DNA from: Hygrocybe punicea
Lineage: Eukaryota; Basidiomycota; Agaricomycetes; Agaricales; Hygrophoraceae
Direction of reading: 5' to 3'
Assembly: GCA_963556145.1 (NCBI GenBank)
Contig: OY744469.1
Location: forward strand, 5,676,767 to 5,740,766
Length of the DNA: 64,000 nucleotides
Below the pieces are notes generated by a model. That model searched no databases. It was not told where the DNA came from and saw only the letters and a program-made list of their open reading frames with translations. This document shows, one piece after another, positions 14,759 through 61,242 of the stretch. A program made the translations under genes and the position numbers. Within the stretch, counting starts at the first letter, position 1, and the number at the start of each line of letters is the position of its first letter.

Positions 14759-17725
14759 ACATAATTTCAAGCCCAATAGTAGCGGATTACTGATTTCCTT
14801 GCAGCATATCTCACTGCTAGGAGTGCAATAGATAAGGGCCTCATGGACGTGACACAGGCACTATTCACAGGTCGATTTGGTCCTGATCTGCTTGCTTCAT
14901 TACTTGCTGAGATGTGCTACTTACATCACTCATAATGCAAGCTCACTTATCTCGCTGCTGCTGCTCAGGTAAATGTGTCAAATATACCACCATTTTCAGA
15001 ATTTTCTGACAAGAATGCTTATGTGGGAACCTGACCATCAGTTCAGTTTTTCAAGTCTGTCTTTGTGGATTACAGCCAAGCGTTCCCAGCATTTTATGAT
15101 TGCATTGTTGCATCCTTGCCTGGGACTATCCTCAAAGGTGACCATACATTTAAGGTCAGAATTGTGTTTATGGAACATACCATATCAACTAACCGGCATT
15201 TTCTTAGATTATCAAGAATATGGCACATCTTGGTGGTCAGCCAATGCATACGGCATTATACACAGCTCTAAATAAGGATGAACAAGTTCATGGCCAAGGA
15301 CTTACACTAACAAAGTGTTTATTGCTTGTTAAAGATATGTATGCTGGTATTGCTAAGGGCCTCAAAGATCACAGCCATCCTCTGACAGCTTGGATGTGGA
15401 CTGATTTTGCCGCAGGTATTTGGAACTTATGTTTTTTTTCATAGGGATATTCTTATGGTGACTTTTCACAGGAGAGCTTTCATTCCACAAACTGGCTACC
15501 CTGTCACTCACAGAAAATGTTTCACACATTGATATTGACCCATATATTTATCTCCTGCCCTTGAAATTACCACCAGAACCTTATCACTGTCTCTACTATG
15601 AAATAGAGACCACCATTGACATGGCATGCTACAGTATTCTTTTGCTGCTACCTGACAATGATGATTCCCAACTTGTTATTGGCTTTGAGGTCAAATTTAA
15701 TGTGGATATCCCTGGAATGGGTAGTCAGCAGAAATCTCCTGTGGATGTGATACAGATTGCTTATGGCAATTCAGCATACATTTTCAAGGTAATGTTCTCC
15801 TAAAAAATTGATTGTATCAGCTAATGGTGAGAATTGTAAGGTTTCTGCATTTCAGTCGGGGTCCCAAGTGCCAGGGAATCTTTGATCTATCATCACCTCA
15901 TGCCCACCCAAAGTTTGTTTTTTTGATGGCCTATGTCACTATCTCAACATGATTATTAGATTCGAAAATTCATTTTGGCAGACCTCATGTGACTATGGCA
16001 ATCTTGGTCATTGAATAAGTGGGTGCCTGTGGAGGTTACAAGCTATATCAATCTTGATGAATTCGCACAACTGAAGGGTCAATCCTCCAGCCCTGCCAAG
16101 AGCTTATCACATCTCATGGCCATAGTACTTCAACACCAGTTATCTCCACCAAAGGATCTCCACCAAAGGATCTTCACCACTTATTGTGGTCTACAGGAAG
16201 TCTGGCTCAGTCTCAGCAGGATTTTGCTGCACTTGAGGCCTATGCAAGTTGGAAGATCTGGAAGAGCCTATTGTGTCTTTCTCCTGTTGGCCTGACATTG
16301 GATAAGCAGAATCTCACCATTGGCCAGCCAATTAGTCTTTATTTTGGGAAGAAGATTGTCGCACATGGTATTACTGTTGAACAACCCCAAAGACTGAATG
16401 TTGCCTTGGAGAGTGAGGAGACACGCATGATCAAGAATACACCATCTTGCATTGTTGTCAAAATTCAACATGTTCTCATTCCAGGCCATATTTCCAGCTA
16501 CCATTTGCAGCCACTTTCCCATCTGTAGACATCTCAGTCCTCATTTTGCCTCATTGCATCTTTATGGTGTGTTCAGACTTGGTCATCTGGACCACCAATA
16601 GATATTCCACCACCAATCAATACTTCCCCTGAAATGACAATATCTGCTGAGCCTGCGGCATCTGTGCCTCTCCCCCAAAGCACAATTCACAGTCAGGCCC
16701 CATATGACCAGTCCAAGTCTGAGCCTGAGTCTGAGTCTGACTCAGACTTTGGATCACTGGATGCACAGCATGATATTTATTGCAAAAATATCTTGAAGTT
16801 GTGTTAAAATTAATCTATGTTACTTTAATGTACCAAAAGCAACAAAATATTGCATAACTTTTATACATTTTCAACAAACATATAATGAACAAATAATGTA
16901 TTACTTTGTGTCCAGTGGGTGAGTAGCTTCATTCTTTATTTCATAACATTCATTGTGTTTGAAATAATACTTTGCTTAGAACTATGTAGAAATGCCACAA
17001 TATATTTTCAGAATCTTTCTTCTAATCATGTGTTGAAATAAAATAGATTAATTTTAAGATAACCTTTTCATATTTTTTTATCAAAATATTATACTGTGCA
17101 TCCCATGGATCAGACTCTGAGTTTTATTTTGAGTACATCTCATCAAGTGCAGGCATGCTGCAAAATATTGTGCCAAAGGTAACACACATTTATAATGTTG
17201 TTCTGATGTGTGCTTATGCAGTATAGGTCAACATGGATAGTGTTGCCGTAGTTCGGTTCCGAACCTAGCCGAACCCGGTTCAAACCCCGAACCGAACCCT
17301 AAGTTCGGTCTAAGTTCAGCCAAGTGCTGAACCGGACTGCGGGTTCAGTTCCGGGTTTCGAGGCCTGCCGGATTTCCTGAACGGCTCCAAACCGCGTTCA
17401 TAGTGTATTGCACGGGTACGGGTAAACCCGCGGGTATTGCCGCGGGTACAGCCACAGGTGCGGGTACGGGTACAGCAATTTGTACCCGTACGATTACCCA
17501 TACCCGCGACGGGTAACCCGTGACATTCAGTCACACGACTGATGCATCGGGTTCAAATGCAACCGCAACAATCCAACCACAACGACCACGACAACAAAAT
17601 AGAAGACCACGGTGACGAAGACCATGACAACGGCAATGGAGAGCGTGGCCAGGAGGGTGGTGCACCCACCTACCGGCCCCGGTACATATCTAGATTCTAC
17701 CTACATTGACATTGACTAATTCCAT

Positions 17726-17768
17726 ACCTCGCGAACACGCCCTGACGCGTCGACGTCGTTCGCGAGGT
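17726..17768. other. CCTCGCGAA...TTCGCGAGG inverted-repeat motif
   Basis: ACCTCGCGAA and TTCGCGAGGT form a perfect 10-bp inverted repeat around CTGACGCGTCGACG. It is one of three copies in this element (others 18066-18119 and 19106-19158). Confidence 0.85.
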
Positions 17769-18065
17769 GATAGGCACCAAGAAAGATGACGGGGCTCAAG
17801 ACTCATCCCAGGCCCCCCACATACTGGTCGGCAATGAGCCAGAGTGCCCGAAGACAACCACCCCCATTCACCTTGTGTCCACCAGCCCACGCGTCCACCG
17901 GCCCACGCGTCCAATGATGCATCAGCTGGCTTTGTGCCCACCACCCCCGTTCACCTCGCATCCACCAGCCCATGTGTCCACCGGCCCACGCGTCCAACGA
18001 CGCATCACCCGGCTTTGTGCCCACCCACCAACTCCACTGCACCGGGCCCGCACCCACACCCATTC

Positions 18066-18119
18066 CACCTCGTGCTCACACGGCATGCGTCAATTGACAC
18101 ATGTCCGGTGTCGCGAGGT
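18066..18119. other. CCTCGCGAA-type hairpin motif, second copy
   Basis: ACCTCGTG at the left and TCGCGAGGT at the right flank the core GCGTCAATTGACAC. Confidence 0.75.
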
Positions 18120-18455
18120 CAAAGGGTGTGCATGTCCAGTGTCGCGAGTGTGAGACCCGCGGGTTACCCGCTACGGGTACGGGTACGGGTCAGGTACGGG
18201 TAGGAAAAAAAAGACCCGGCACAAAACCCGTACCCGCGGTGATGGGTACGGGTATTCATGGGTATGGGTACAGGTATCCCCAAAAGTACACGGGGGTTAC
18301 CCGTGCAATACACTACGCGTTCAAACCGCGAACGCGGATATTTTTAAGGTATTGATTTCATTTGTTTTTCATATTTCTTTACTTACTATTTCGTGTTAAA
18401 CGGCATCATGTGACCAGCCGTGACCTTTCACGCAACACAGCAACTTCAACGCGGG

Positions 18456-18486
18456 TTGAACACAACACAAATTGTGTTGTGTTCAA
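18456..18486 (+). other. Perfect 15-bp hairpin just before the 5' splice site
   Basis: TTGAACACAACACAA, one base, then TTGTGTTGTGTTCAA. The stem ends two bases before the intron donor at 18489. The same hairpin sits at 33042-33070 before the donor at 33076, with weaker versions in 33975-36177 and 59973-61242. Confidence 0.85.
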
Positions 18487-18488
18487 AG

Positions 18489-18535
18489 GTAAGTTTCCAT
18501 TTTTTTCTTAACTTTACTAATGTTATTTGCGGCAG
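18489..18535 (+). other. Conserved 47-nt intron in hAT-like element
   Basis: GTAAGTTTCC at the donor, ACTTTACTAATG as branch-point-like sequence and TTTGCGGCAG at the acceptor. Equivalent introns of 46-49 nt occur at 33076-33121, 34299-34345, 42422-42467, 50064-50110, 55085-55133 and 60304-60350. Splicing is inferred from the consensus only. Confidence 0.75.
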
Positions 18536-18589
18536 GCAACTCGACTGCGACCACATCGCAACCACATTGGCACAAGATGAATGCCAACG

Positions 18590-19090
18590 CCAACACAATG
18601 CCAACGGACGCGGGGCAGCCGCAACACCACCACCACCACCACCAGCGGCGGCAACGGCAATGGCAAAGGCAACGGCAACCAGGCAACGACAACGGCAATG
18701 GCCAGCAGCAGCAGCAACAGCAGAAGCAGCAGCGCCGGCAGCAACAGCAGCAGCAGCAGCAGCAGCGGCAGCGGCAACAGCCAAAGCCATCCAACATCAC
18801 CACCAGCGGCAGCAACAACAATGGCAACCACAACTATGACGGCCAGCAGCAGCAGCAATGCCGGCAGCAGCAGCAACAGCAACAGCAGCAATGCCGGCAG
18901 CAGCAACGGCAGCAGCAGCAACGGCGGCAGCAGCAACGGCCACGACAGCAGCAGCAGCAGTGGCAGCAGCAACGGCAACAGCAGCAGCAGCAGCGCTGGC
19001 AGCAGCAACGGCGACGGCAGCAGCAGCAGCGCCGGCAGCGGCAGCAACGGCAGCAGTGACAGCGGCGGCAGCAGCAGCGCCGGACGGCTC
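18590..19090 (+). repeat. CAG/CAA/CGG trinucleotide payload
   Basis: About 500 bp of imperfect CAGCAGCAACGGCAG units. One frame after the intron reads as a Gln/Arg-rich peptide, another as Ser/Gly/Asn-rich and another as Ala/Thr-rich. Because all frames are open by composition, translation cannot be claimed. Confidence 0.8.
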
Positions 19091-19105
19091 CCCCGCAGCC
19101 CAACT

Positions 19106-19158
19106 ACCTCGCGAAGTGTAGCGCCGTATCGATTGATACGTGCCTGCCATTCGCGAGG
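19106..19158. other. CCTCGCGAA-type hairpin motif, third copy
   Basis: ACCTCGCGAA at the left, TTCGCGAGG at the right, with the core CGTATCGATTGATACG, itself a perfect palindrome. Confidence 0.85.
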
Positions 19159-21609
19159 AGAACAGAGCTCATGGGGTGAGCCCACCTCGGTCCGGGGTTC
19201 AGACCGCATCTGAACCCAGACCGAACGCGGAGAAACGGTTCAATGCCGTCTGGGTCCAGGTTTGGCCATGCGCCAAACCGGACCCAAAGTTCAGTTCGCG
19301 GTTCTGCCAAAAAGGGTCGGAACCGGACCAAACTGAACTTCGGCAACACTAAACATGGATGATGAGGACCCTGATCCTGAATATTCCCAGCTTGATGACA
19401 TCATGGCCAGCATCCCACTCAATGATGACTCTGATCTTGTTCAACCGGCAACTGCTACCACCCCACTTCTCACTCGCCTCCTAGATGACATATTCCATCG
19501 ACTTCTCAAAACACTCTCAAAGACACATTCAGGTTTCAAGCCATTTGCATGTGCATTCAGTGAGGCTTTACTCATTCCTGACAAGAGTGATGAAGATGCT
19601 GTCAAAACCTTCTATGCACAACGAAATATTCCATGGAGTGTTGCTCTGAAGTCGAAAGCCCATGCCATCCAATGATGTGTCCATCAGTATTGTCCACATC
19701 CAGCCTGACTAGTTCCTGACCTTGAGAAACTCTTTGCAAGCTGGCTGATGTCAAATGCTCAAACTATCCCAATGACAATCCATTCTTCAGTCATGAGTCA
19801 CACAAAGAAGCTGCAGGGATTTTGCAGGTTGCAGCTTGAGGGCTACTTTCAGATCCACTGGGATTTCCACTATATCACAAACATGGTGTTGACCCACATG
19901 GCCTAACGGTTTATTGGTGCATCCGAGGCAATAACCTGGAACACTTCCAGAATGGCATGGTGAAGACATGCAACCATGATACCACGACACTGAAAGACAT
20001 TGAGGGTGATGCCAATCTGGCAAAGCATCCTGAGCTGGTCCACAATCCCACTAACAATGTGTGGGTATGGGGCAAGGATGTTGGTACGATTCACATGTCC
20101 AGGTGGTTGATTTCTGTTCTCTGCTCTTCATATAACCTCTGGCTTCCAGACAGGATGTGTACTGCTGCAATCAATCCAGGAACCAATGACCTGAGGAGTA
20201 ATCTTTGCAAATTGATCTGGATTGCAGCACTTGAGTTCTGCAGCAATTGCAGTCAGGGACATTCCATATCCTATGTATGTTGCAGCTTGGACAATTTGAG
20301 ACCAAAGTAAAGGATGTTGCCAATTGATGTGAACAGCATCTGTCAGACTCATGTTCTCTGATTTGTGTTTCCTCCCACATGAATTTGGATCATGTAAGCT
20401 CTCTTGGAATGCACAATGGGGGCATGATGCCTCTGCCAGGCTGTGGGGAAAGGTAATCGTGGATGACATTGCTGCTTTGTCACGAAGAACATCATTGACA
20501 GTTGTTTCTGGCTTATTGGATGTCTGGTGAGACGAGTAACAGAAGAGTGTTGGATGCACTCACTTGAGCTTTTAAGCGGGCACAATGAGCACACTTGCGA
20601 TTCTGGGCTAACATCCTCTTCCTTGCTTTCTTCTCAATCAATTTAAGTGCATTGTTCTCAGCATGCCACCATATTTCATTCTCATGTTTGTCCTTCATTG
20701 CTGCATCCTGCTGGTATATTGCTATGAGATGTTGATCACAAGAGACAGGCTGAAAGAATTTAAATAAGCCAACACCAGATTCTGAAGAGGTTACACGAAG
20801 ATTGATAAAAGGCCAAGGGGCTCATGGGACAGCAGAGCCAGGTAGTGAAGCCATGGAAAGATCAGTCATGATCTCCACATCACTGTTGTCAGTGTTGGTG
20901 TTGCATTGGGAATCACCATCAGAAAGGTCCTTGGCATTGGGTTGGAAGTTGCCATCAGCAGGTCCTGCTGATGATGGAATGAGATTGTTGTGCTGGTGCA
21001 AGAATGACATATCAGGTCAATTTTAGATTAATGAAATAAATAGCACACCTGCATGATCCTTAAGTACTCTTGGATACAGAGGAAATGCTTGTTCTCATTG
21101 GTAAAGAGAGGATTGCCAAACAGGTTGTGTTGAATGATGTTGATCATCCCTATGGCACATGAATATGAATCCGACTGTAGCCTGTGTGGCATGCTTCCAG
21201 ATTCTTGGAACATTGGGAATCTGTGTAGGTTGAGCCATTGCTGGATGCACTTGACATCTTGAACTGGCCATGCCCATTCAAGAGTATCACTGTGTTTGAT
21301 CCATTTGTCAGGAGCATTGACAAACAAGACAGCCCAGTGCATCTTTTCTTTGTTGAAAGGTATGATGACAATCTCCAGAGACCCTTCATGAAGGTGGTTG
21401 CCAAGATTGCGTGCACAGGTGAAGCACCAGTGGTGCTCATACTGTTTCCAGCGGTCAGCATTGAGCTGGACAACAACGGAGAAGGTAAGATCTTCAACTG
21501 AGACATGTTCATGAAGACCAGGATTGAGATGAATACACCGGACAATGGGCTCATTTGTGGCATCAACAACACAACCACAGATCATCCACATTGATAAAAG
21601 CTCCACAAT

Positions 21610-23659
21610 TAGTGTTGCCACAGCTAAGGCTAGTGGTCAGCTAGTAGCCATTAGCCTAGCTGAATTTAGCTTAGCTGGACCCCAGCTAAGCTGCAGTTAA
21701 TTACAGTACATTATCAGTTGTATTTTAGGTAGTATACAATTTATTTATCTAATGTTTTGTAGTTAAAATGTATGAATATGAAGGTTCTCGTGCATGTGAC
21801 ATGTGTGACATACAGTCTCACATCCTCAAACCAATGTCAATGATGCTCACAATAGCTCATTGCGAGCTTGAAGATGACGATGATGATGGAAAATGGCTGG
21901 GAGGGTGGTGTGCCCACCTACCGGCCCAGGTACATGCCCATATTCTCTTCACATCGCGTCTACTAACTCCAAGTTTGCTATCCCATCACCCATCCATCCC
22001 ATAACCTCGCAAACACAGGCAGATGCACCAACTGGCGCATAGATGCATTTGCGAGGTATCTAGCATGGAAACAGGTGACGAAGCCCCAGTGACAACAATG
22101 GGAATGCAGGTGTAGCCTGTGTTCCCATATCACCCTTGCCACTGGCCCTTCACACCTCGCGAACGAGCACTGACACGTTGTAGAGACTCAACGTTCCCCT
22201 GAGTCCGTATCGCCGATGTGACCAACGTGACCTGATGTATGCCACCTTTGTCCCAGCCGCTTTTGGACCAAATCCGGCAGCCTCACAAGCCCTGGAGTTC
22301 CAATTCTAGAAGATGGATCTCATCGGACTCGATTCCCGACTTTGGACTTGCTTTATATATGCATCCCCTCGTCCTTTTGGAGATACGTATGAGATTTTAG
22401 ATCTTTTTCTTGGACATTCATTTTCCCCTCCATTATCCTGTCACTGTTGCATCACAACTCCCCTCTTCTCATCCCCATTCCAACCTTTCTTTGTAGTTTA
22501 CCATCGGCTGAAATAGATATGTCTGAAAGTAGATTACTCACTCATGTACTATAAAAACGGTCTCCGATGACTGTACAAAAAAAGAGATACCATTAGTCCC
22601 CGTTTCCTCATAGTCAGAGTCATCTTTTAATCACTTCAAATGCTCATCCTCGTAGACCCTTAGCTTTTCGTAGTTGACCTCGTTGTCTTTATCATTATTC
22701 CTTTATTCATTCATCGTTTCCGACCCGACCCGACCTGACCCGACCCGCCGTACCCGACATTGTTGGCATCATCGGGTTCTTCGTTATTTATCCATTTTCA
22801 CTCCATTCATCACCGGGTTTGATATTATTTGTCCAGTTTTACACAGTGGCTTATATTTTTACTTCCATTTCCACTTTTTACTACTATTCCTGACACTGAC
22901 TTATCCACCGTCACTTCTACACTGACACCCCTTGGTTAGGATCACCTATATTGTTCCGAAGCCACCCTGAACCTGCATCTACAATGTCAACTGGTATCCA
23001 GCACCAATGACGACAATGGGAATGTGGGTGTAGCCTGCGTTCCCATCTCCTCCTCACCACTGGCCCTTCACTTCATGAACAAGCACTGATGCATCAACTG
23101 ACACGTAGTGCTCATTCGGCACCAATGACTCAGATGATGATGGGAATGTGGGCTACACCCATGTTCCCATTTCCTCCTCGCAACCCACCCCCCATCTCAA
23201 CCTCATGAAAACAGACAGACTGCATCAATTGACATGCGTATGTTGTTCACGATGTAGAGACATATATATCTCTGGGTACGTATTCACTCATTTCACCATA
23301 TTCCCTATTTGTTCTATCATTTGTATGTAGTGGCTGTTGTAAATAGTTACAAATAAGAAGAGTTTTGGGTTTTCACCCCAATGACAACGGACTCGCAAAA
23401 CACGAATCCACACCTACCCAGGCCGCATTCACTACAACAAGGTATTTAGACAACAGGTGTGGGTATGTATAGCTGTGGCTTCATCAGCTCAGCTGCAGCT
23501 CAGCCGCAGCTAAGCCACCATGTCGACTATAGTCGACTGTAGTTGGTTATAGTTGGCTATGTCCGGCTACTGGCTTCGACTAGAAAAAAAAACCCATTAG
23601 CTTAGCTGTAGCCGCAGCTAACCTTAGCTGGCTTGCGTAGCCTAGCTGCGGCAACACTA
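21610..23659 (+). mobile_element. hAT-like element, GCTAGC/AGCTAAGCT family, 2050 bp
   Basis: TAGTGTTGCCACAGCTAAGG...CTAGCTGCGGCAACACTA with a perfect TSD TCCACAAT (21602-21609, 23660-23667). The subterminal words are AGCTAAGC, GCTAGTAGCC and TAGTCGACTA, not GGTTCG. It carries a GGGTGGTGTGCCCACC block (about 21903), CCTCGCAAA/TTTGCGAGG motifs (22004-22057; further ones at 22154 and 23200-23256) and a solo LTR (22179-22983) that splits one of those motifs. It interrupts the Ulp1 gene. Confidence 0.92.
22179..22983 (+). repeat. Solo LTR, TGTAGAGACTC family, 805 bp
   Basis: TGTAGAGACTCAACGTTCCC...CCTGCATCTACA, flanked by ACGT (22175-22178) and ATGT (22984-22987), a 4-bp TSD with one CpG-to-TpG change. 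A TATATATGCATCCCC block lies at about 22355. Confidence 0.82.
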
Positions 23660-27470: not shown

Positions 27471-27500
27471 TTGGCGATGTTGGCAATCTCAATCTCACAG

Positions 27501-31885: not shown

Positions 31886-32745
31886 TCAAATTATGGCATC
31901 ACATGAGTTGCTATACAAAGGATTGCAGGGAGAAAGTTGTTCAGTTTTTCAAGTGATAAAAGTACATATACATTTTTCTTTATTTTTGTTCTTTGAGGCA
32001 ATATTTCATCTGTGCTATGTTTGTCTGCATTATAGTGTTGCAAAGTTTGTTTCAGTCAGGTTTAGTGTTACTGCGGCTTGGCTAGCTGGTCAGCTGGCTA
32101 CACAAGCTGCAGCTACGGCTACTAGTTGGCTTAAGCCGCTAGCCATGGCTCAAGCTGACTAGCTGCAGCTCAAGCCAACTTGCTGCTGGCTAGTTTGGTG
32201 TCATCAATCACCAGGGGGACAGTTACCATGCCATCAACCTTGCAAAGGCCATGTACATGTCAATTGACGTGATGACACCATTTGTGAGGTGAATGGCTGT
32301 GTGGAAGCAAGTGGGGGGGGGAATCTGAAGCAATTTGTGGGCTGCCAGAGGTGTGTCAACCAGAGGTCCTGCATGATGCACAAGTCTTGGGCATTTCCTT
32401 GCTGGATACCTCACGAATGTCGGCTGTGTGTCAATTGGTGCTGTCCATGCATGTTCACGAGGTGTGATGGCTGGCAGCAGGGAGATGGCAGAGACTCCCT
32501 GCTCCCTGTGGTTCTTGCCCCAACTGACCTCCTCGTTGCCCTCGTTGTCACCCACAATTGGCCAGTGGGTTTATGTTGATGTGATCATGGTCATGATCTG
32601 GGTGGTTAGTGGATGTTGATGGGTTAGTGTTTTGGGTATGTACCTGGGCCATTTGGTGGGTGCACCACCCTCCCAGCCTTGCTCTCCATCATCATCATCA
32701 CTGTTGTTGGTGCTTAGTTGTGGTTGTTGCCATGTGGGTGGTGGC

Positions 32746-33874
32746 TAGTGTTGCCGTAGTTCGGTTCCGAACCTAGCCGAACCCGGTTCAAACCCCGAAC
32801 TGAACCCTAAGTTCGGTCTAAGTTCAGCCAAGTGCTGAACCGGACCGCGGGTTCAGTTCCGGGTTTCAAGGCCTGCCGGATTTCCTGAACGGCTCCAAAC
32901 CGCGTTCAAACCGTGAACGCGGATATTTTTAAGGTATTGATTTCATTTGTTTTTTGTATTTCTTTACTTACTATTTCATGTTAAACGGCATCATGTGACC
33001 GGCCGTGACCTTTCACGCAACACAGCAACATCAATGCGGGTTGAACACAACACAATTTGTGTTGTGTTCATCAAGGTATGTTTCGATTTTTTCTTAACTT
33101 TACTAATGTTATTTGCGACAGGCAACTCGACCGCGACCACATCGCGACCACACCCACCTTGGCACAAGTTGAATGCCAATGCCAACGCAATGCCAAGGGA
33201 CGCGGGACAGCAGCAACACCACCACCACCACCACCACCACCACCACCAGCAGCAGCAACGGCAACGGCAATGGCAACGGCAACCAGGCAACGACAACGGC
33301 AATGGCCAGCAGCAGCAGCAACAGCGGAAGCAGCAGCAACAGCAGAAGCAGCAGCGCCGGCAGCAACGGCAGCAGCAGCAGCGGCAACAGCAAAAGCCAT
33401 CCAACGGCAACGACAACCACGACGGCCAGCAGCAGCAGCAACAGCGGCAGCAGCAATGGCAGCAACGGCGGCAGCAGCAGCAGCAGCAACGGCCACGACA
33501 GCAGCAGCAGCAGCAGTGGCAGCAGCAATGGCGACGGCAGCAGCAGCAGCACCAGCAGCGGCAGCAACAGCAGCAGTGGCAGCAGCAGCAGCAGCAGCAG
33601 TGCCGGACAGCTCCCCTGCAGCCCAACTACCTCGCGAAGTGCAGCGCCGTATCAATTGATACGTGCCTGCCATTCACAAGGAGAACAGAGCTCATGGGGT
33701 GAGCCCACCTCGGTCCGGGGTTCAGACCGCGTCTGAACCCAGACCGAACACGGAGAGATGGTTCGATGCCGTCTGGGTTCCGGTTTGGCGCAGGGCCAAA
33801 CTGGACCCGCAGTTCGGTTCGCGGTTCCGCCAAAAAGGGTCGGAACCGGACCGAACTGAACTTCGGCAACACTA
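32746..33874 (+). mobile_element. hAT-like element, GGTTCG family, 1129 bp
   Basis: TAGTGTTGCCGTAGTTCGG...ACTTCGGCAACACTA, perfect TSD GTGGTGGC (32738-32745, 33875-33882). It matches 17238-19351 closely at both ends but lacks that copy's GGTACGGGTA section. It has CATGTGACC at about 32993, a pre-intron hairpin 33042-33070, an intron 33076-33121, a CAC then CAG payload (33215-33600) and a CCTCGCGAA motif 33629-33681. Confidence 0.93.
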
Positions 33875-34403
33875 GTGGTGGCAACATGGCAGTTGGTTGC
33901 ATGTTGTGGTGTCTTTTGCTGGTCCAATTTCAGTGGTTCTTGCGGGACATGTGAGAGATGGTGGGAGATGGGGATAGTGTTGCTGTAGTTCGGTTCCGAA
34001 CCTAGCCGAACCCGGTTCAAACCCCGAACCGAACCCGGGGTTCAGTCTAAGTTCAGCCAAATGCTGAACCGGACTGCGGGTTCGGTTCAGGGTTTCGAGG
34101 CTGGCCGGATTTCCTGAACAGCTCCAAACCGCGTCCAAACCGCGAACGCGGATATTTTTAAGGTATTTATTTCATTTGTTTTTCAGATTTCTTTACTTAC
34201 TTTTTCGCGTTAAACGATATCATGTGACCATTACAGGTTTCTTCACGCAACAACGCAAGGCCAATGAACCCGACACAATGTCGCGTTCGTGAATACAGGT
34301 AAGTCTCGTAAATACTCTTAACTTTACTAATATTATCTGCCACAGGCAACTTGACCGCGACCACATCGCGAGCACACCACCACGGCACAACATGGATCCC
34401 AAC

Positions 34404-34562
34404 GCTGGAGTGGTACCGGGGTACCACTCCGGGGGCTCATGCAGGACTCGAGGGAAAGGTCGACTGCATAGGAAGGATGGACTGACTACTACATCTGGAA
34501 GGCTACTAACTAGGTCAAACCGTGGGAACCTGGTCACGTGACTGGCAGGTCCCACTACTCCA
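34404..34562 (-). repeat. Solo short LTR, 159 bp, TSD ACGC
   Basis: On the minus strand it starts TGGAGTAGTGGGACC and ends GGTACCACTCCA. ACGC flanks both sides (34400-34403, 34563-34566). The central GTCACGTGAC box and CCGTGGGAACC are family hallmarks. Confidence 0.85.
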
Positions 34563-34752
34563 ACGCCAATGCCAACGGACGCGGGACAGCCGTTACACCA
34601 CCACCACCACCACCACCAGCAACAGCAACGGCAACGACAACGTCAACAACGACGATGGCAACAACGACGACGGCAACGGCCAGCAGCAGCAGCAGCAGCA
34701 GCAACGGCGGCAACAGCAGCAGCAGCAGGTGCTGCATCAAGCCATCCAACGC

Positions 34753-35650
34753 TGTAGATGTGGGTTCTGTGTGGCTTCGGAACTATATAAAGAAATAATA
34801 TAAAGATCCTAACCTGTGGGTGTCAGCGTAGAAGTGACTGGATAAATCAGTGTCGGGAATAGAAGTAAAAAGAAGGGAATGTTAGTAAAAGTAAAGCCGC
34901 CGCGTAAAACTGGACTAATAACGACGAAGCCGGCGATGAACGGAGTGAAAACGGACAAATAATAAAGAACCCGACGATGCCGATGATGTCGGGTACGGCG
35001 GGTCGGGTCGGGTCGGGTCGGAAACGATGAACGAATATACGGAAACAACGATGAAGACGACGAAGAGGACTATAAAAAGCTAAGGGTCTACATGGACGAG
35101 CATTTGAAGGGATTAAAAGGCGATTCTGACTGAAGGGAAATGGGGACTAAGGGTATCTTTTTTTGTACGGTCGTCGGGGACCGTTTTTATAGTACATGAG
35201 TGTGTAGCTACTTTCGGACATGTCTACTTCGGCCGATAGAAACTACAAAGAAACACTGGAATGGGGAAGTGGAAAGGGGGGTTGCAAAGCAACGAAGACA
35301 GGAAAGTGGAGGGGAAAACGAATATCCATGAAAAAGATTGGAAAAGTCCTACATATCTCCGAAAGGATGAGGGGATGCATAAATAAGGTAAATCCAAAGT
35401 CGGGGATTGAGTCCGAAGAGATCCATCTCCTGGAATTGGAACTCCGAGGCGTTTGAGGCTGATGGATTTAGCCCAAAAGCGGCCGTCACAAAGCGGCATG
35501 TGTCGGGTTACGTCGGTCACGTCGGGTCACGTCACGTCACGTCACGTCGGGTTACGTCGGGTTCGAATGCAAGTTGAATGGCGGCATCGGGTTGGTCCGG
35601 ATTTGTGATATATCGATGATACGGACTCAGAGGGACGTCAACCCTCTACA
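34753..35650 (-). repeat. Solo LTR, TGTAGAGACTC family, 898 bp, TSD ACGC
   Basis: It is the reverse orientation of 13686-14758 and 22179-22983: on plus it starts TGTAGATGTGGG and ends CCCTCTACA. ACGC flanks both sides (34749-34752, 35651-35654). A GTCACGTCACGTCACGTCGG repeat (35519-35560) is still CpG-rich, so this is the youngest copy. Confidence 0.85.
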
Positions 35651-36548
35651 ACGCCAAGGAACCTCGCGAACACGAGCTGACGCGTGGACATCGTTCGCGA
35701 GGTGTTCGCGAGGTATTCGGCACCAAGAAGGATAACGGGAGCGTGGGTGTACGCTCCCATCTCCACGGCGGCTCATCCAATGCCGGCAGCATCAGCAGCA
35801 ACAACAGCAGCAGCAGCAGTTGCAGCAGCAACGGCAGCAGCGCCGGTAGCGGCAGCAACAGCGACAGTGGCAACGGCAATGGCAGCAGCAGCAGCAGCAG
35901 CAGCGCCGGACGGCTCCCCCACAGCCCAACTACCTCGTGAAGTGCAGCGCCGTATCGATTGATATGTGCCTGCCATTCGCGAGGAGAATAGAGCTCATGG
36001 GGTGAGCCCACCTCGGTTTGGGGTTCAGACCGCGTCTGAACCCAGACCGAACGCGGTGAGACGGTTCGACGCCGTCTGGGTCCAGGTTTGGCCATGCGCC
36101 AAACCGGACCCGAAGTTCAGTTCGCGGTTCCGCCAAAAAGGGTCGGAACCGGACCGAACTGAACTTCGGCAACACTAGATGGGGAGATGGTGGGAGATGG
36201 TGGTGGTGGGTTGTGTTGTTCATTGTTGTTGTAGCTGGTGTTGTAAGGAAGTAGGCTGTCAACATAATTGAAGCCGGTCAATCTCAGCTGGTGCAGTTTC
36301 AAACTCAGTTTCAAAATTATTTTGCACAAGATGGCCTTGTAATGTAGATATATCATTTAAGTTTGGGTAAATACACAAACTGGATGTGCAATATAGTACT
36401 GGCTAGCTGGCTGAATGGCTGCAGCTAATGGCGACAAGAAATAGTGTAGCCGTAGCCATAGCTGGGTTGAGCTGGTCACAAGCCAAGCCGATTTGGTGGC
36501 TTGGCTATGGCTAGTAGCCAGCTTCTAGCTGTAGCCATGGCAACACTA

Positions 36549-38014: not shown

Positions 38015-39178
38015 TAGTGTTGGGGGAGTTCGGTCTCTGGTTTGGAGATTTGGCCGTGGGCTGAAACGGTTTCAAACTGAGTTTGAACCGCAAACCGATA
38101 TTCGCAAGTCGGCCACTTGGCTGACTTCCAAAGTCACCAAGACACTTCTGCAACCACCAAGAACGCCCACAACGTACGCCAAACAAGGACGACGGAGCAC
38201 CTGAGGTGGACCAAACGTGGCAGGGTACTCCCTGCCGCCCACCTATGCTTTGTTTATTTTTTTATTTTTTTATTTGACACTAACAGTAGCAAGTTACAGT
38301 CAACGGCCACCACGGCCATCACCACCACTACCACCACGGCCACCACCACCACCACTACGACGACGACGACGATTGCCACCATGACAGCCGCAACCACCAG
38401 GACCGCTACAACCACCAGGACCGCCACGTCGGACGCCAACAACAACGTGTCCAAGACACGCGCGCACGCAAATGAACATGAACAGGGTGGAGTGGGAGTC
38501 AGAGAGGTGGAACGAGCGGCGGGGTGTGGTGCATCCACCCCCGCTCCTTCGTGGTATGTTATTTTTATTCTTTCTTTTATTGATTTTATTTGTATATAAC
38601 GGAACGCGGCACAACACCACCACCACCATGCAACACCAATGCGGCCAACGTGGGGTCAACCCGCCCACCACGCATGTACAACACGCATGACGCGTCGGGA
38701 CACCCATGCGGAGAGGCCCATATGCCACCACCACGCGCTCGCCGAAAACAACCAATGCAGGACCAACGCGGGGCCAACACGCCCGTCGTCACGTGCACAA
38801 CACGTCTGACGCATCGGGGCATCACCACCACCACCACCACACCCAATCGACAACAGCCGAGGCGGAACACACGCGTTCGACACATGTGTTTCACTAGGAC
38901 AGGGCTGTGCAGCCCACCAACCCCCAATCCCACCTCGTAATGAGGCTAGCCACGTCGATTGACGTGTGCAGCGCTCTTGTGAGGTCAGATGGGAGGGAGG
39001 GCCCCCAGCCCACGCGGTTCGCGGTTCAGACCACGTCTGGACCGAAACCAAACCGACGTAAACCGTTTACGTCGGTTTCAGTTTCGGTTTGGGATTTTTT
39101 GGTAGGAACCGAACCGTTCGGTTTCGGTTTGGGGCAAAAAGGCCGAAAACCGGACCGAACCAAACTTCCCCATCACTA
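38015..39178. mobile_element. hAT-like element, GGTTTCGGTTT family, 1164 bp
   Basis: TAGTGTTGGGGGAGTTCGG...AAACTTCCCCATCACTA, perfect TSD TTACCAAC (38007-38014, 39179-39186). The terminal inverted repeat differs from the others after the first eight bases. It has ACC/ACG trinucleotide payloads (38300-38450, 38820-38845), the words GTGGTGCATCCACC (about 38527) and a CCTCGTAA...TTGTGAGG motif (38932-38985). An intron was not identified with confidence. Confidence 0.9.
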
Positions 39179-41209: not shown

Positions 41210-44200
41210 AGAGTACACTATCGACAAAAAGAAAATAGAATGCTTCCAAAACAACCTTGAGTATGCAGGAATAGCGGATTAATGGTTTGATAAACTTGCA
41301 AACGACACGAAAATGGATTAGGACAAATTAGTTGAGGAATTTGAGAAGGAATGGCTGAAGAATGCAATCCCAAAACCAACAAAAACTGAGCGAATCCATA
41401 CCCTCAAAGAGTGGATCATAACCACAGATGAGCTGGGGAGGAAAACAATAACCACAGGGTCAAAGGAGGTATGGACACACGTGAAGTAGGTGAACAGACT
41501 AGCCACCAAAGCAAAAGACGCAGAAGATACAGCCAGCCTACTACTACAAGACATGTTTGACAATTTACCAGCACCAGTTCATGAACTTATACGGTACAAA
41601 ACACATACCAACTACGAAGAACTTGCCAAAGCCGTACACACTCTTGACACTCTTGATTTATGCAAGGTCGTTGACAAATACAAAAAGGATGAGGAAACTG
41701 CTCAACTTGCATGCATCCCAAACTCCCCAACAAAAAGCCTTTGCAACTTGCTAGCAAACACCCACCTCCAAACACCTGCAGGCCCATGCCACCAATACGA
41801 TACCCCCCTGACCCTACCAAAACCATTCGATACAAGACACCAACCATGACCCTTTAGCAGCAATACGGGCAACCACGGAAACTTATTTGCAAGCCAAGGG
41901 TCCATACGACAACATTGAGGTGCAGGCCCAGGTGCGTTGGGTGTAGACAGAGAACCAACCACCCCATCAATCATCCCCATTGCCAGAAACCAACCTATCA
42001 CTGTTAGACACAACAACCTACAAAATTTTGCCATACAACAACACCCCAACACTGAAGTGGGACACACAGCATACAATAGTGTTGCTGTGACTACAACTAG
42101 CAGTCGACTTGACGTTGTAGTCATAGCTGATATTAGCCCAGTCGACCTCCAACTCGACTACAACTATCCGATCAACTTGACTTTGACTATGCCAATCTGG
42201 CAAGCCGTAGTCGAGCTGACTTAGCCGACTGTAGTTGGTATTGTAATAATTATATAATTTTATTTATTTATTTATGACCTGTAAATTTAAATGGCTTGAG
42301 AGCAGATTTGAAAGAGTTTGGGGGTGGCTTATATACCCTTCTCGCTGCGCACGGACCATGTGACCTTGTTTGGTCAACTGGAACAAACTCAATCACGCAA
42401 CAATTACGCGTAGCACCCAAGGTAAGTGTAATTCGGTTTATTCTACTAACTACTTAAACATCTTTAGGTTTTTTTCCCGCACCCTCACGCCAAACGAACA
42501 CGAACATGGCAACAGCAACAAGCAGATGGGATGCAGTTGAGAACAGGGACAACCCAGGCCAACCATGACAGCAAGAATGAGGATGATGGGAATGAGGACG
42601 ATGGACTAAACGAAGACAAAAACGACGACAAACGCAACGACGGTGAGAACGGGAAGATGACAACAAAGCGGGAACGGCAACTACGACAATGGGAAGATGA
42701 CAACAGGGGAACGGGACAACGAGGACAACGGAGACCGGGACAAGAAGGACAATGGCCACAGGGACGACGACGGCAACGGGGACGACGATGATGGCAACGA
42801 CGAGGACAGTGAGCATGGGTATGGGGACAGGCAACGGATGACAGAAACAAGACGGACACCCATGGGACGTCCCCAGCGCCATCCAACCTCGCAAAAACAC
42901 GGAGTGCATCAATTGACGTGCCCCTGTTGTTCGTGAGGTACTTAGGATGGAATGTGGTGGGTACCTGCTGTCGTCTTATCCCCTCACCCTCACCCTCACC
43001 TCATCCCCACAGCAACAATGACAACATGGGTGGCAACAATGACAGCAGGGACCGGAACGAAGACAATGTGGACTGGAACGATAAGAACAGGAATGGGGAC
43101 TGGAAGGATGACCACAACGACGAGAACAGGGATGACAATGGGGATGGGAATGGGGATGGTGATGATGACCGGAACGACGACAGCAGGGATTGCAACGACA
43201 ACAACAACAGACACCAGGACAATGAGGATGACAATGAGCAACCATGCCAGACGTGGACAAGAAGGATGCAGAAATGGGGGTGGCCAGGTCGAACGAGGAA
43301 GATGAAAGGTGACAGGGACCCGGAAGATGGGAATGACAGCAACCAGAGGCAATGGACCACAAGGACAGGAATGAGGACGGACCACAAGGATGATGGCAAG
43401 GTCAGGGGCGACCCCTCCTCTCCGTTTCCCCTCCCCCTCCGCCTACTCTTATTTATTTTTATAATATTTAAATTTATTTTAATATATATTCTTTTTACTA
43501 ATGGACTGACCATAGTCAATATATTAGTTGAAGTCATGGCTTGACTAGTCGAAGCCGTGACTTCGACTTTGACTACATCAATTTATGTGTATATAGTCTA
43601 GCTGTAGTCATGACTACATAGTTGCGACTACGACTAGTCAAGTCGTGGCAACACTAGCATACAAGGCCCAGGTCAATGCATGGCATCACACCAATCCCGA
43701 TGGCCAACCAGAAAAATTACACCTATTCCTGTTGACACCAGGAACCACCCTGCTCAGTTCTTGTGAATGCTGGGAATGCGGATATGCTGGCCACAGAGCT
43801 GGAAACCCCGCTTGCTCAGGGAACACCCTTCCAGAACTGGAACGCACCTGATTCTGGGTCACCAGTTACATTACCCATGAAGTGTCAAAGGAACATCAAG
43901 GAACCAGCATCAATTACATTAACTATGGACATTAGGCATACAGAGGTTACAGCAACTACAACTAGCATTATGGAGGACACAACTACATGGACAAAGTAGA
44001 CAACATCCAGGGAAATGGAGGAGGGCCGTCCATGTAGATGCAGGTCAGATGGCCCAGAAAAATCAGAGGACAGCAAACACATCAGTCCCCGACCAGCATA
44101 CAGGATGGGTTGGGGACGTGCACTTAGACCCTCCCAAAATTGATTCACATATGGACATAGAGTGTTTAGTCAGTAAAGACCTGGTACCCCATACCCCTAA

Positions 44201-49765: not shown

Positions 49766-51266
<1,501 letters not shown>

Positions 51267-52022
51267 TAGGTAATGGTCAGTAACAGAAATTTAAAAAATA
51301 TAAAATGTACTGATGCGGGGGTGGGCACATCATCACCCCCTCCGTGGCCGCCTGCGTTCGTCTGCGTCATGAAGTTGCTGTTGCTGTTGCTGCTTGGTGT
51401 TCTGTTCCCTAACCCATTCCCTCCTTCTCATTCCCGTTTGCATTCCCGTTTGCGTTCCTGTTTGTGTTCCCATGGTTCCCGTTCCCCTGGTGTCGTTCTG
51501 TTTTGTGCTCCCTTTCCTGTTCATGTGTGTGGGGCGTTGGGCATTGGGCATTGTCGTGTTGGGCATTGTCTTGTTGGACGTTGGTTGTTGGCGTGTTGAA
51601 CACGTGATTGCGGCTGTGTTGAATTTTCAGGTCATGTGATCATGCGCATCTGTGTTGAATGGTCCATGCATCACTCATTTTGGGTATATAATTGAGTTTC
51701 CACCACCGTAAACTCTTGGGACACAACCCCAAACAGTAGATATTAATTATATATTATATAATGTATTAAACAGTATAGCCTAAATAGGATGCCTAGGCAT
51801 TGCTATAAATGGTGATTTAGGGATTCCTGGTGGATTCCTGGTGGAATTCATCAGGACTCCTGGTAAATACTTGGTATTCCTGGTTGACTCCAGGAGGATG
51901 TGTGGGGGAGTGTAAAGTCCTCCAAAGCATGAGTGATCCAAAAAGGAAAGAGTCTAGAATCTTATCTAATCATTGTCTAATCTTATCATCGATCAGAGCC
52001 TTTATGTTTGCCCAGTTCAACA

Positions 52023-54420: not shown

Positions 54421-56910
54421 CTTTGTTCAGGTACCTTGTTGTTGTTCGTGGGTTTCTAATATCTAAATAACCTAGCAGGAAGGGGTTTGTAGGTATATGT
54501 ACTGTATGAGTCAATAGAATGTAATGGTGAGGTCTCTTCAATTAAGAAGTGAGACTTTGAATGGGTGTGGATGATGGTTGATATGCGTGATGTACTGAAA
54601 TAATATATATTCACTACTGGAATATAAAATGTGGATTAATGAATACTGATAGCAATATTCACCAATTTAATATGAATTGTTTTGGTTACAGGGCCTATTC
54701 AATCAAGAGTATCTCTGGGTATTATAATATTTGACTTAAATCCGAAGCTTCAAACGCACATTGGCTACTAGTTCTAGTGTTGCCGAAGTCCGGTTTGGTC
54801 CAGTTTTCGGCCTTTTTGGCTGAACCGAAAACTGGACCCTTGGTTCAGTTCGGCCCCCCTGCTGAACCAGAACCGGAACCGCATGGAACCGTTCCATGCG
54901 ATCCGGTCTGCGTTCCGATGCGGTTTGAACCGCGAACCTAGGTAGATACTAGAATATTCAATTTTTATGTTAATTTTTTGTGTATGAACTCGCGAGAACT
55001 TGGGTCATGTGACCTTAAACATACACGCGAATGCACGCGGATTCGACTCAACCACAACAGCAATGAACAGTAACAGCAACACTGGTAAGTAGTTAGTTTA
55101 TTTCATACTTTACTGACATTTTCTTACACAAAGAAGCCCCCCACGACCCATGCCCATGCCCACGCCCATGCCCTCGCCTGCCCGCGCCCATGCCAAAACC
55201 ACACGCCAACACCATGCCCATGCCCACACCACGCCCACGATGGGAACCAGGGACCATAGCGAGAACGGGACACAGCGGGGAGTGGTGCGCCCACCCCCGC
55301 TGCTAAGATACGTCGCCTTTTATTTTTGATTTTTCACTTATTTATCTATACTTACCCCCCACAGCTCCATGACGCCCGTGAGCGTGGACGTGGCAGCAGC
55401 CCCACGGCAACCCCAGCAGCAGTGGCAGCAGCCATGGCTGCAACGAAAACGGCAGCGGCAACAATGGCAGCAGCAACAGCAGCAGCTACGGCAACAGCAG
55501 CTATGGCAGCAGCAGCAGCAGCAGCGCAGCTACGGCAGCAGCAGCGTCGACAGCAGCGACGGCGACAGCAGCAGCAGCAGCGACCGCGGCAACGGCAGCA
55601 GTTGCAACAACGGCGCCGGCAGCGACGCAGCACCCACGGCAGCAGGTGGTCCCCCCCTTCCTCCCCACCCTCCCAACTCCTTGCAACCCCAGGCCCACGT
55701 CAATTGACATGGTGCTGCGGCTTGCGAGGAAATTTGAGGGTGAAGGAAGGTCAATGAGTTCACGGTTTGGACCCGGTTCCAAGCCGTTCAGAAATTTCTG
55801 AAGGGCCCTGAACCCCGCACCGGACCCGCGGTTCAGTTCAGCCAAAGTTGCTGAACTTGGACTGAACTTAGGGTTCGGTTCTGGGTTTGAACCGGGTTTG
55901 GATCGGTTCCGAACCGGACTTCGGCAACACTAACTAGTTCAGGGATATCTTTAATACCTTTTGAATACTCTGTTTTGTTTAGGATGAAACCTTAACCTTA
56001 GAAGTGTATCTAGCTGACTAATGCTGACTAATGAATTGATTGGACTGAGTGAATTCTCCTTGCTGACAAGGGGAACTCAGAGAATGATAGAATGAGAGTG
56101 CACTGGACTGGATTACCAGCACTAGCTACTACAATGAGTGACTACTAGTACTAATAGAATGAGGGATCACACTGTGTGAACCCAGACTAAGACTGACTAA
56201 TGATTGGTGAGGGGGGAAATCCTACTGACTACTGGAATTTGGGGGCCCTATTTATACTGTTGGAGAACAATGGGGGACTGAGAACAATGGGAAAGTGAGA
56301 ACAATAGGACTGAGTCATGAGAACAATGGATGGCATCAAAGAGGCGGTGAACAATGGGCTCTATCTCCATTTGGACTGTTTAGAACAATAGACTGCTCAG
56401 AACAATAGACCATTGTCTTTATGTAAGCAGAATATCACAATCACTCTCTGATGTATCCTATCTTATCATTATCTTATCATCCTCTTGTTCACATCTTATC
56501 TAATCATTTCCCATTATCTAGCTGAGCCGCTCTTGATCAATATAAGTAAACAAGATTTGTAATCAATCCATTACTGCTAATATAGGTAAGAATGCTAGTT
56601 GGGCTTGTCTCCTTGCACGCGCAATACAGAGAAATATCTAATAAATACTAATGAGTGGGGGATGTGCCTCTGTGCACCATACATAGACGGCTAGGTCTGG
56701 GCATTGCTAGTGAAGCCATAATAAATGATATAAAGGTAAGCATATATGCTATTTGTGTCTGTTCACTAGCATGCGTAATGTGGAAAGGCATAGAATGGGT
56801 ACTAATGAGTGTAGGTGTGCATCTATAGTTTTGCACTTAAATATCTAAGTCCGTGGTCCAATGGTAAACCCATGACATTACACCCAAAACCATTTGGGGT
56901 CATGACATCG
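54388..56910. mobile_element. Unclassified insertion in the Copia integrase, probable TSD TGTG
   Basis: The integrase reading breaks at 56911 and resumes at 54387; TGTG stands on both sides (54384-54387, 56911-56914). After removing the hAT-like element 54775-55932, 1.36 kb remains, with GAACAATGG/GAACAATAGAC repeats (56265-56420) and no recognised ORF. It could be a solo LTR or a DNA transposon; the ends do not follow a family I know. Confidence 0.55.
54775..55932 (+). mobile_element. hAT-like element, GGTTCG family, 1158 bp
   Basis: TAGTGTTGCCGAAGTCCGG...CGGACTTCGGCAACACTA, perfect TSD ACTAGTTC (54767-54774, 55933-55940). CATGTGACC at about 55007, intron 55085-55133, GCCCATGCCC repeats (55148-55245), CAG/CGG payload (55390-55640) and a partial hairpin motif with GTCAATTGACATG (about 55698). 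Terminal inverted identity is about 16 bases. Confidence 0.93.
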
Positions 56911-58290: not shown

Positions 58291-58291
58291 T

Positions 58292-59131
58292 TCAGGGCCT
58301 TGGGCAATACCTGCTAATATGGCCTAGCTCGCCGCAATTGTAGCAGTTTTTGTCTGCAAAGCGATTTTGCCTTTGCTTTCTCTCCAGTGTCGCAGCCATG
58401 GCATCGTTCTCATTGTCGGTTGCCAGCTTGGTCATCATCCGTTTTGACCTCGTCTGTTGGGATCTGTAGCAGTCCCACTCGTCAGCAATTACTTGGATAA
58501 ACAGGTTGGCCTCGATGGTACAAGTGGGGCTGTACAGCTTGGCTGCGGTGAGCAGCATCAAGGTGAAATTTGCAAGGTGGAGAGAGAGAGACAAAATAAT
58601 GGTCAACCAGTAATCCTTGTCATCAATGTTGACATACAATGAGACCAGGTCCTCTCTCTTCATGTGAAACTCATCCAAAAACTTGTGTATGTTGCCTTTC
58701 TCAGGACACCTCGAGTCGAGGAAGGCAGCCCTCAACTCGGTCTGGGCAAAGACACTCCGATGAGTGTACTCCTCAATGATGGATGCCCAGGTGAGGGCAA
58801 CAGTTTGGTGGCGATGGATCTTCATGGCCACTGAATCAGGTATCTTCTGTAGGAGAAGGTTCTTTGCTGTCACTTTGTCCTTTACCCACTTGTTCCCATC
58901 AGGGTTCGGGGCTGGTGACCCATCATCCGAAGAAGGTGGAATTGAGGGCTGGGGGGTGCTTCCATCAAAATGTCCCCAATGCCCTTTTGCCATAACAGCG
59001 GCTGTAAATCATAGTTCAAAAATAGCCCAGTTGAGCCCGCTGGAGGCAAGTTTTGGGACATCCAATGGGATGGAGTCAGAGATAGCTTGAAGGGTGGTGG
59101 ACATTTGGTCAGACAAGTGGGAGGCAGACAT
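58292..59131 (-). pseudogene. Copia gag with CCHC zinc knuckle
   Basis: ATG at 59131 (MSASHLSDQMSTTLQAISDS), then VPKLASSGLNWAIFEL, one TGA stop at about 59005 where the family has Arg (CGA), TAAVMAKGHWGHFDG, the capsid-like domain, and the zinc knuckle CYNCGELGHISRYC at about 58345-58300. Apart from that stop the frame is open to 58292, so decay is slight. Gag binds and packages element RNA. Confidence 0.88.
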
Positions 59132-59157
59132 GCAGTGAAAATGGAGGGCTTATAAAC

Positions 59158-59458
59158 TATAGTGGCTATAGACTGGATTCTCAGTGCGAATATGAAGAGC
59201 AACTAGAATGTATTCATTACCTCTATAGGTACATCAGTCTAAGATACAAATCAGAAAAGGGGAATACAGACCTCAGTGTGAATACAAAGAGCAACTGAGG
59301 TCTTTCTACACTGCAAAGGGGGTAAATATACTACTGTAGACAAAGAAGAACGTTGAGACAAAGCATGAGTAATCCAAAAAGGAAAGAGTCTAGAATCTTA
59401 TCTAATCATTGTCTAATCTTATCATCGATCGGAGTGTTTATGTTTGCCCAGTTCAACA
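59158..59458 (-). repeat. 5' LTR of the Copia element, 301 bp
   Basis: On the minus strand TGTTGAACTGGGCAAAC...GTCTATAGCCACTATA. It holds a duplicated CTCAGTGTGAATA...AAGAGCAACT block. TSD CATTT follows at 59459-59463. Confidence 0.9.
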
Positions 59459-59972
59459 CATTTGTATATCATAAGCCCATATTTGCCCCAGCCACAGGTA
59501 TAATAAAGTGCGATGTTTGGAGGGTCTGAATAGTAGCCATGACAGATGTTCTCTAGAACCAACTCAGAAATATCCCATGCTTTGTCATTGAAAAGTGGCA
59601 GCACTGTCTTAGAATCTTTAAGAGGGCCATAGGCTTATAACACTTTTGCAATACTGGCAACAGCTGCTTGGCTGGAGGTACAAACTGTTTGATCTGCTGC
59701 CATAGCAAACCTGAATGACCCTGAAGCATATAGTTCCAAGAAACCCCTTTTGACGCCAAAAAGGCTTTGACAAAGGCTTTGTCTTCTGGATCAGGTATGA
59801 AAAATATGTCCCAAAGAGCTTGGGCAAATGGATGACAAAGACCATGATGCATTGAGATGGGAAATTGGTGCATGAGGTGCCAAATATCTCCCAAAACCTG
59901 AGAGTGCACAAAGCCAACACCATCACTCTTTTCATTGACAGGATGGGAGAGCCTGTGAGCACGGATATCAGC

Positions 59973-61242
59973 TAGTGTTGCCATAGTTCAGTTCCAAACC
60001 TAGCCAAACCCGGTTCAAACCCCGAACTGAACCCTAGGTTCAGTCTAAGTTCAGCCAAGTGTTGAACCGGACCGCAGGTTCAGTTCCAGGTTTCAAGGCC
60101 TGCCGGATTTCCTGAACGGCTCCAAACCGCGTCCAAACCGTGAACGTGGATATTTTTAAGGTATTTATTTCATTTGTTTTTTGGATTTCTTTACTTACTT
60201 TTTCATGTTAAACGGTATCATGTGACCATTACAGGTTTCTTCACCAACACCACAACAATGCAAGGCCAATGAACGCAACACAATGTCACGTTCATGAACA
60301 CAGGTAAGTCTCGTGAAGTATCTTAACTTTACTAATATTATCTGTTACAGGCAACTTGACCGCAACCACATCACAAGCACACAACATGGATCCCAATGCC
60401 AACACAATGCCAACAGACACGGGATGGCCGCAACACCACCACCACCACCACCACCACCACCACCACCACCAGCGGTGGCAACAGCAATGGCAACATCAAC
60501 AACAACAATGGCAACGGCAACATCAATGCAATGGCAATGGCAACAACGATGACGGCAATGGCCATCAGCAGTGCTGGCAGCAGCAGAAGTGCCTGCAACA
60601 GCAGCAGCAACGCTGGCAACAGCAGCAACGCTGGCAGCAGCAGCAACGCCAGCAGCAGCAGTCGTGGCAGCAACACCACCATGACCATACCACCACCTGA
60701 AGAGGACAACAGCAGCAGTGCCAGCAGCAGCTGCTGCTGCTGAACCAAGCCATCCAATGCCAACGGACACGGGACAGCTGCAACACCACCACCACCAGCG
60801 GTGGCAAGGCAACGATGACGGCGATGGCCAGCAGCAGCAGCAGCAGCCATGGCAGCAACACCACCACAACCATACCACCACCCCGACGAGGACAACAGTT
60901 GACAGCAGCAGCACCGGCATTGCCATGCAGGGACCATGGGACAAGACCCCCCATCCCTCCACATCCCTTGGAAACACCAGAGGGCTCCTGAGCACCCATC
61001 TACCTCATGAAGTGCAGTGCCGTATCTATTGATACATGCCTGCCATTCGTGAGGAGAATGGACGGGGTGAGCCCACCTTGGTCTGGGTTTCAGACTGCAT
61101 CTGAACTTAGACCAAATGTGGAGAGACGGTTTGATGCCATCTGGGTCCGGGTTTGGCCATGCGCCAAACCGGACCCGAAGTTCAGTTCGCAGTTCCACCA
61201 AAAAGGGTTGGAACCAGACCAAACTGAACTTTGGCAACACTA
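59973..61242 (+). mobile_element. hAT-like element, GGTTCG family, CpG-depleted, 1270 bp
   Basis: TAGTGTTGCCATAGTTCAG...AACTTTGGCAACACTA, perfect TSD ATATCAGC (59965-59972, 61243-61250). Compared with 17238-19351 many CG words are TG or CA. CATGTGACC at about 60220, intron 60304-60350, CAC/CAG/CAA payload (60430-60900) and hairpin motif 61002-61054. It splits copy B of the exonuclease gene. Confidence 0.93.

Follow-up and report, generated by a model that had tools for sequence, protein, structure and literature searches.

What mobilises a group of DNA elements that share their ends and among which no hAT transposase gene is seen? The question is raised by a stretch of 64,000 nucleotides from Hygrocybe punicea (contig OY744469.1, positions 5,676,767 to 5,740,766 of the forward strand; hereafter the window), which holds ten complete elements with tips of the TAGTG form. 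A preliminary description, made from the letters of the window, took them for non-autonomous members of the hAT superfamily and saw what seemed an undescribed architecture, a single set of ends accompanying three or more unrelated subterminal words. We find that the same genome (92.2 Mb, 42 contigs) contains hAT elements that share these ends and their 8-bp duplications. From the sequence comparisons below, the ten elements are very probably non-autonomous hAT elements, likely mobilised by at least three hAT lineages of the same genome whose TAGTGTTGCC tips and words match their own.

The window elements and their ends

Direct reading of the borders shows TAGTG tips in all ten complete elements, each with an 8-bp duplication that is perfect, in agreement with the preliminary description. 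The elements are listed here together with a truncated copy, a hairpin and two empty sites. A1, A2, B and C denote hAT lineages found elsewhere in the genome, and paired figures are identities over the 100 outermost bases at either end, aligned with free end gaps, a measure by which unrelated ends also score 55–65.

17238..19351, plus strand: A-type (GGTTC word), non-autonomous hAT; duplication AACATGGA; nearest ends A2 hAT, 93 and 81
21610..23659, plus strand: C-type (GGCTA word); duplication TCCACAAT; includes a copy of a 745-bp repeat; nearest ends C element L081, 77 and 76
32063..36548, plus strand: C-type (GGCTA 11, GACTA 1); duplication GTCAGGTT; two A-type elements inside; ends less clear-cut, C nearest (69 and 71) and B close behind (71 and 62)
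32746..33874, plus strand: A-type, nested in 32063; duplication GTGGTGGC; nearest ends A2, 92 and 80
33975..36177, plus strand: A-type, nested in 32063; duplication GATGGGGA; includes the 745-bp repeat in inverted orientation; nearest ends A2, 87 and 81
38015..39178, plus strand: A-type, diverged tips; duplication TTACCAAC; nearest ends A1 (distant), 62 and 76; contains related empty sites of L002 and L063
38543..38550, no strand: related empty site with one copy of GAAGGAGC (minus-strand reading), matching the 1,262-bp A-type element of L002
38804..38811, no strand: related empty site of the A1 hAT element in L063; single GTCTGACG; position plus or minus one base
42077..43656, plus strand: B-type (GACTA word); duplication GCATACAA; nearest ends B, 72 and 81
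49766..51113, plus strand: A-type; duplication TGCCATGG; nearest ends A1, 79 and 83
54775..55932, minus strand: A-type; duplication ACTAGTTC; A2 (73 and 81) and A1 (70 and 80) roughly equal
59973..61242, plus strand: A-type; duplication ATATCAGC; nearest ends A2, 87 and 78
63241..64000, plus strand: C-type, truncated at the window end; first 66 bases 79% identical to one L081 end
13811..14012, no strand: hairpin of 202 bp with the same tip

The largest entry is a nest, in which the elements at 32746 and 33975 each keep their own perfect duplication and whose outer element measures 1,138 bp once they are removed. Tips depart from TAGTGTTGCC at both ends of 38015 (TAGTGTTGGG and TAGTGATGGG) and at single ends of 32063, 33975, 42077 and 49766, the left tip being TAGTGTTACT in 32063 and TAGTGATGCC in 49766. 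The partial copy reported at 63241 is present and runs past the end of the window. The hairpin, which had been grouped with the elements, is real, as its arms are complementary at 91 of the outer 95 positions, and it belongs to a small family with 158 matching ends genome-wide (up to three mismatches; control 0); its flanks, GATGTGAC and GACATGAC, agree at only 6 of 8 bases, and one of its tips reads TAGTGTTGAC. TAGNG is the form of hAT tips and nTnnnnAn the hAT target bias; T stands at position 2 in 12 of 28 cases and A at position 7 in 10 of 28. Rfam gave no match within the window.

The ends are abundant beyond the window. The exact TAGTGTTGCC sequence occurs 3,230 times in the genome (1,613 and 1,617 on the two strands), compared with 104 (50 and 54) for its reversed control. 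The tip followed by GTTCGGTTC has 534 matches, and the GACTAG and GGCTAGC end patterns, with up to three mismatches, have 110 and 100, with controls of 0 in each case; 38 tips are common to the 100 listed rows of each of these two patterns, and at that tolerance the two classes thus overlap. The window itself has at least 16 exact tips, counted by eye, where the genome average predicts about 2.2, though the finding was chosen for them. Among the first 100 tip places listed, plus/minus neighbours within 5 kb form 28 pairs and minus/plus neighbours 7, and the 28 are spaced by 201 bp in three cases, 371–372 bp in four and 1,107–1,510 bp in fifteen.

Duplications likewise accompany the elements outside the window. 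In the first ten GGTTCG loci by coordinate, eight have a perfect duplication, one (L002) has a single mismatch, and one (L007) lacks a partner end in its 3-kb locus. The two empty sites confirm that the duplication arises on insertion: of two relatives of the 38015 element, one carries the L002 element and the other the A1 hAT element of L063, and the 8-bp word is single in the window copy. These are related repeat copies rather than the same locus in another strain.

Transposase-bearing elements in the same genome

The window contains no hAT gene that tblastn with the A1 and B proteins could detect at E 1e-3 (the A2 and C proteins were not used). A profile search of the genome for hATC (PF05699), in which 150 of 573 candidates were scored, returned at least 152 matches, a lower bound. 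Transposase genes or their remains lie within the ends in question in the following elements, hAT genes in those of A1, A2 and B and hAT gene pieces in the shortened element of C.

L061 562-3828, L062 1341-4650 and L063 1853-5178: A1 hAT elements, GGTTCG ends; perfect 8-bp duplications
Contig C39, 3,562 bp: A2 hAT element, GGTTCG ends; duplication GTGTGGGC
L064 1078-4022 and L067 468-4637: B hAT elements, GACTAGTC ends; perfect 8-bp duplications
L081 123-1922, 1,800 bp: C element, shortened, GCTAGC ends; duplication AGCCAGGT

The 8-bp duplication is perfect in all seven of these elements (three A1, one A2, two B, one C), and the 10-bp tip is identical across the four lineages save for a single change at one end each of L062, L064 and L067. 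The B gene of L067 is interrupted by a GGTTCG element that bears its own duplication. Pfam detects hATC in the frames of A1 and B, and two more A1 frames give no match; a hATC-type transposase is enclosed by the shared ends in A1, B and A2. For the B protein there are also matches to four chains of Hermes type, with E values from 1.8e-06 to 4.2e-06, and in all four lineages we see by eye C-x2-C exons of the BED type ahead of the main frame.

These transposases are related to differing degrees. When B is searched against L061 by tblastn, A1 and B share 27–30% identity, and over the parts found in another comparison 29–33%. The A2 pieces on contig C39 are 59–74% identical to A1, and the C-side transposase in locus L080 is 38–62% identical to B in pieces. 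They also differ in preservation: 10 of the 13 full-length (1–722) B matches have no stop at 95–100% identity, the query included, and among the A1 frames that of L061 is stop-free over 503 residues, that of L063 has one TGA and that of L062 two stops. The stop-free B frames suggest recent B activity.

The shortened C element L081 retains two B-like transposase pieces, one 57% identical over 171 residues and the other 25% over 185. Its N-terminal hAT transposase part is kept and the catalytic middle is gone. The same 187-residue frame is present at C8:2002196-2002921 and C40:4582268-4582993. That a DNA-binding remnant of this kind may act as a repressor is speculation on our part.

Subterminal words and transposase lineages

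Each window element carries the word of its nearest lineage in excess. Words were counted over the outermost 200 bp at either end, omitting the first 15 bases, and the counts were compared with 60 shuffles, which across passengers and hAT elements predict 1.1–2.8 occurrences per word. GGTTC occurs 6–17 times per A-type window element (1.6–2.4 expected), GACTA 14 times in 42077 (1.4 expected), and GGCTA 7 times in 21610 and 11 times in de-nested 32063 (1.9 and 2.5 expected). In 59973 the full GGTTCG is absent from the counted regions, where GGTTC is found 6 times. The elements with hAT genes agree with their passengers, having 16–22 GGTTC in A, 18 and 19 GACTA in B, and 20 GGCTA in L081. Beyond the words, one end of 17238 has the same initial 50 bases as an end of the A2 hAT element. 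By blastn there is scant likeness to the hAT elements past the ends and nested copies, and most of the window elements are therefore not simple internal deletions.

Ends and genes are also linked by position. We compared the 200 listed rows of GACTAG and GGCTAGC ends with the listed B-transposase gene matches, using 50 shifts of the genes as a control. All 15 long B genes (87–100% identity) are followed on the 3-prime side by an inward-facing end no more than 600 bp away, at 169–172 bp past the match in 14 and at 367 bp in one; shifted genes gave a mean and a maximum of 0. For 23 of 32 looser B relatives, an inward-facing end is found no further than 7 kb away (21 on the 3-prime side; shifted mean 0.6, maximum 3), mostly with GGCTA-like words. 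Among the matches listed, outward-facing ends are absent at those distances from all 47 genes. The candidate partner of the C-type (GCTAGC) elements is represented by a shortened element with hAT pieces and by ends near B relatives.

Subterminal words sort by transposase lineage. The GCTAGC and GACTAGTC words accompany transposases which, from the alignments given above, are related to each other. The claim of an undescribed architecture, with unrelated words on a single set of ends, is therefore not supported in that form; what was described is a number of hAT lineages that have a 10-bp tip in common. By analogy with Hermes and Ac, the transposase would cut at the tip, its N-terminal zinc finger would read the subterminal words, and staggered insertion would yield the 8-bp duplication. 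As the lineages share a tip and differ in their words, we would expect each of them to mobilise chiefly its own passengers: A those with GGTTCG, B those with GACTAGTC and C those with GCTAGC. A bolder possibility, which we advance tentatively, is that the ends form a natural recognition code, with a frozen 10-bp tip, a finger and word that changed together in each lineage, and passengers partitioned among several transposases. This proposal draws on transposases that are about 27–33% identical and on the switch between GGCTAGCC and GACTAGTC among related ones, a symmetric change in a palindrome.

Several observations weigh against mobilisation by lineage-matched transposases. No movement has been observed, the Pfam search gave no BED domain, and a complete C element was not recovered, since L080 with L083 has one end only; the most promising candidate is on C35, from 1285136 to perhaps 1289000, where an end and a gene are located. 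Nine of the 32 looser B relatives have no nearby end among the matches listed. The word is GACTAG in one B relative (C6:7678252) and GGCCCGGTTAAC in three, which indicates that three classes are too few and that words switch more often. Finally, an 89-bp stretch, 88% identical, is shared by the B-type element 42077 (42853-42939) and the A-type element 49766 (50630-50717) and is present in further GGTTCG loci; we have no explanation for it.

The elements could instead be relics that no living transposase now moves. Stops in the main frame of two of the three A1 elements, the many A and C relatives that are fragmentary or stop-bearing, and the 2–31% divergence of window copies where they can be aligned would all fit this reading, but we consider it unlikely given the stop-free frames of B and of one A1 element and the mostly perfect duplications. 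Less likely still is a single promiscuous hAT transposase that reads mainly the TAGTGTTGCC tip and moves every family, leaving the words as passive remnants of ancestry. The identical tip of A1, A2, B and C and the concentration of the best-preserved transposases in one lineage, B, speak for it; yet the words are enriched and repeated in every family, the BED domains of Hermes are described as binding subterminal repeats (PMC10368747), and the tested maize Ds-like elements that share the tip and little else with Ac are described as unresponsive to it (PMC3260210). An origin in another superfamily such as KDZ/Zisupton is scarcely credible: the genome is rich in KDZ transposases (186 matches) and Zisupton is described as generating 8-bp duplications (PMC12730594), but the genes inside the shared ends are hAT and not KDZ, which contradicts it, and a TAGTGTTGCC pair with a duplication is found in 0 of 20 KDZ loci, which extend only 1.5 kb to each side. 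Neither finding named in the preliminary description as contradicting its reading, copies genome-wide without 8-bp duplications or ends of an autonomous element from another superfamily, came up when it was looked for.

Shared modules, neighbouring features and known systems

The suggestion that the families also share internal modules holds in part, because the 89-bp stretch is without explanation. The 745-bp module, found at 14014-14759, at 22225-22983 within a C element and at 34753-35525 within an A element, was rejected as a part of the architecture. It is an independent dispersed repeat, with at least 40 copies (40 scored of 1,152 candidates, query included), of which 39 end at query position 744–746 and 38 start within 1–19, and one copy stands outside the A2 element, on its upstream side. 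No flanking duplication was seen by eye in the three copies inspected. A 162-bp stretch common to 34403-34563 (A) and 63307-63468 (C) recurs in L036, L061 and L082 and is likewise found outside elements.

Three other features lie in the window. Open frames at 20128-21621 on the minus strand include one that resembles a Ulp1-type protease, as found near some fungal transposons. Frames at 152-2200 that resemble segments of a Gypsy-type retrotransposon (RNase H, integrase, chromodomain) adjoin a large palindromic element at 2788-9921. The latter has two 2,387-bp arms that are 100% complementary and rich in a 34-bp minisatellite, CA..TG tips and 7-bp direct flanks TCTTTTT; its end has 350 genome matches (up to two mismatches; control 0), often paired 5–10 kb apart. 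Kyakuja elements are described with the same tips and 7-bp duplications, but without inverted repeats (PMC12730594).

The kind of element found here is already known, and its closest precedents are maize Ac/Ds and the MarorhAT elements of Marasmius oreades. The maize account describes 903 elements with 11-bp tips, 8-bp duplications and variable filler, some classes sharing little with Ac beyond the tip, and includes Ds-like elements that do not respond to Ac (PMC3260210). As in H. punicea, many elements of varied size and filler there share one short tip and 8-bp duplications, some with divergent subterminal regions; unlike the maize system, in which one autonomous lineage (Ac) was studied, the elements described here involve at least three lineages with a common tip and a word of their own. 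In M. oreades, a 3,396-bp autonomous hAT, MarorhAT-10, is thought by the authors of that work to drive new insertions of its non-autonomous relatives, which were observed (PMC9674265). The likeness lies in a mushroom autonomous hAT with closely matching relatives, MarorhAT-4, -11 and -12; the non-autonomous copies there, unlike ours, are about 0.6 kb (PMC9674265).

Hermes resembles the present elements in its 8-bp target, short tips and subterminal repeats, which its BED domains bind at one end, and in a C-terminal sequence match to B, but it is an insect element with a different tip and the repeat word AAGT (PMC10368747). Among proteins, hAT transposases of Amanita muscaria, Grifola frondosa and Piloderma croceum are 47–49% identical to B over 67–97% with hATC present, a likeness at the protein level, and the nearest proteins to B, 87–89% identical, are on JGI contigs. 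Of the named relatives, nearly all belong to the Agaricomycetes and one to Rhizophagus. A literature search brought up no description that we recognised for these ends, which does not in itself show their absence from print, and the matches listed for TAGTGTTG together with hat included nothing related. What we would call unusual in this system is that several lineages differ in their words and yet have one tip in common; that this is unreported is not established.

With partners in the same genome, apparently orphan elements become ordinary hAT passengers. Several transposase families with a common tip and differing end-words make a useful natural experiment: if the transposases do read the words, the matched sets would allow a direct test of whether the tip, the word or both decide which passengers are chosen. 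Lineage B, with its ten stop-free full-length frames, is a natural first candidate for such tests.

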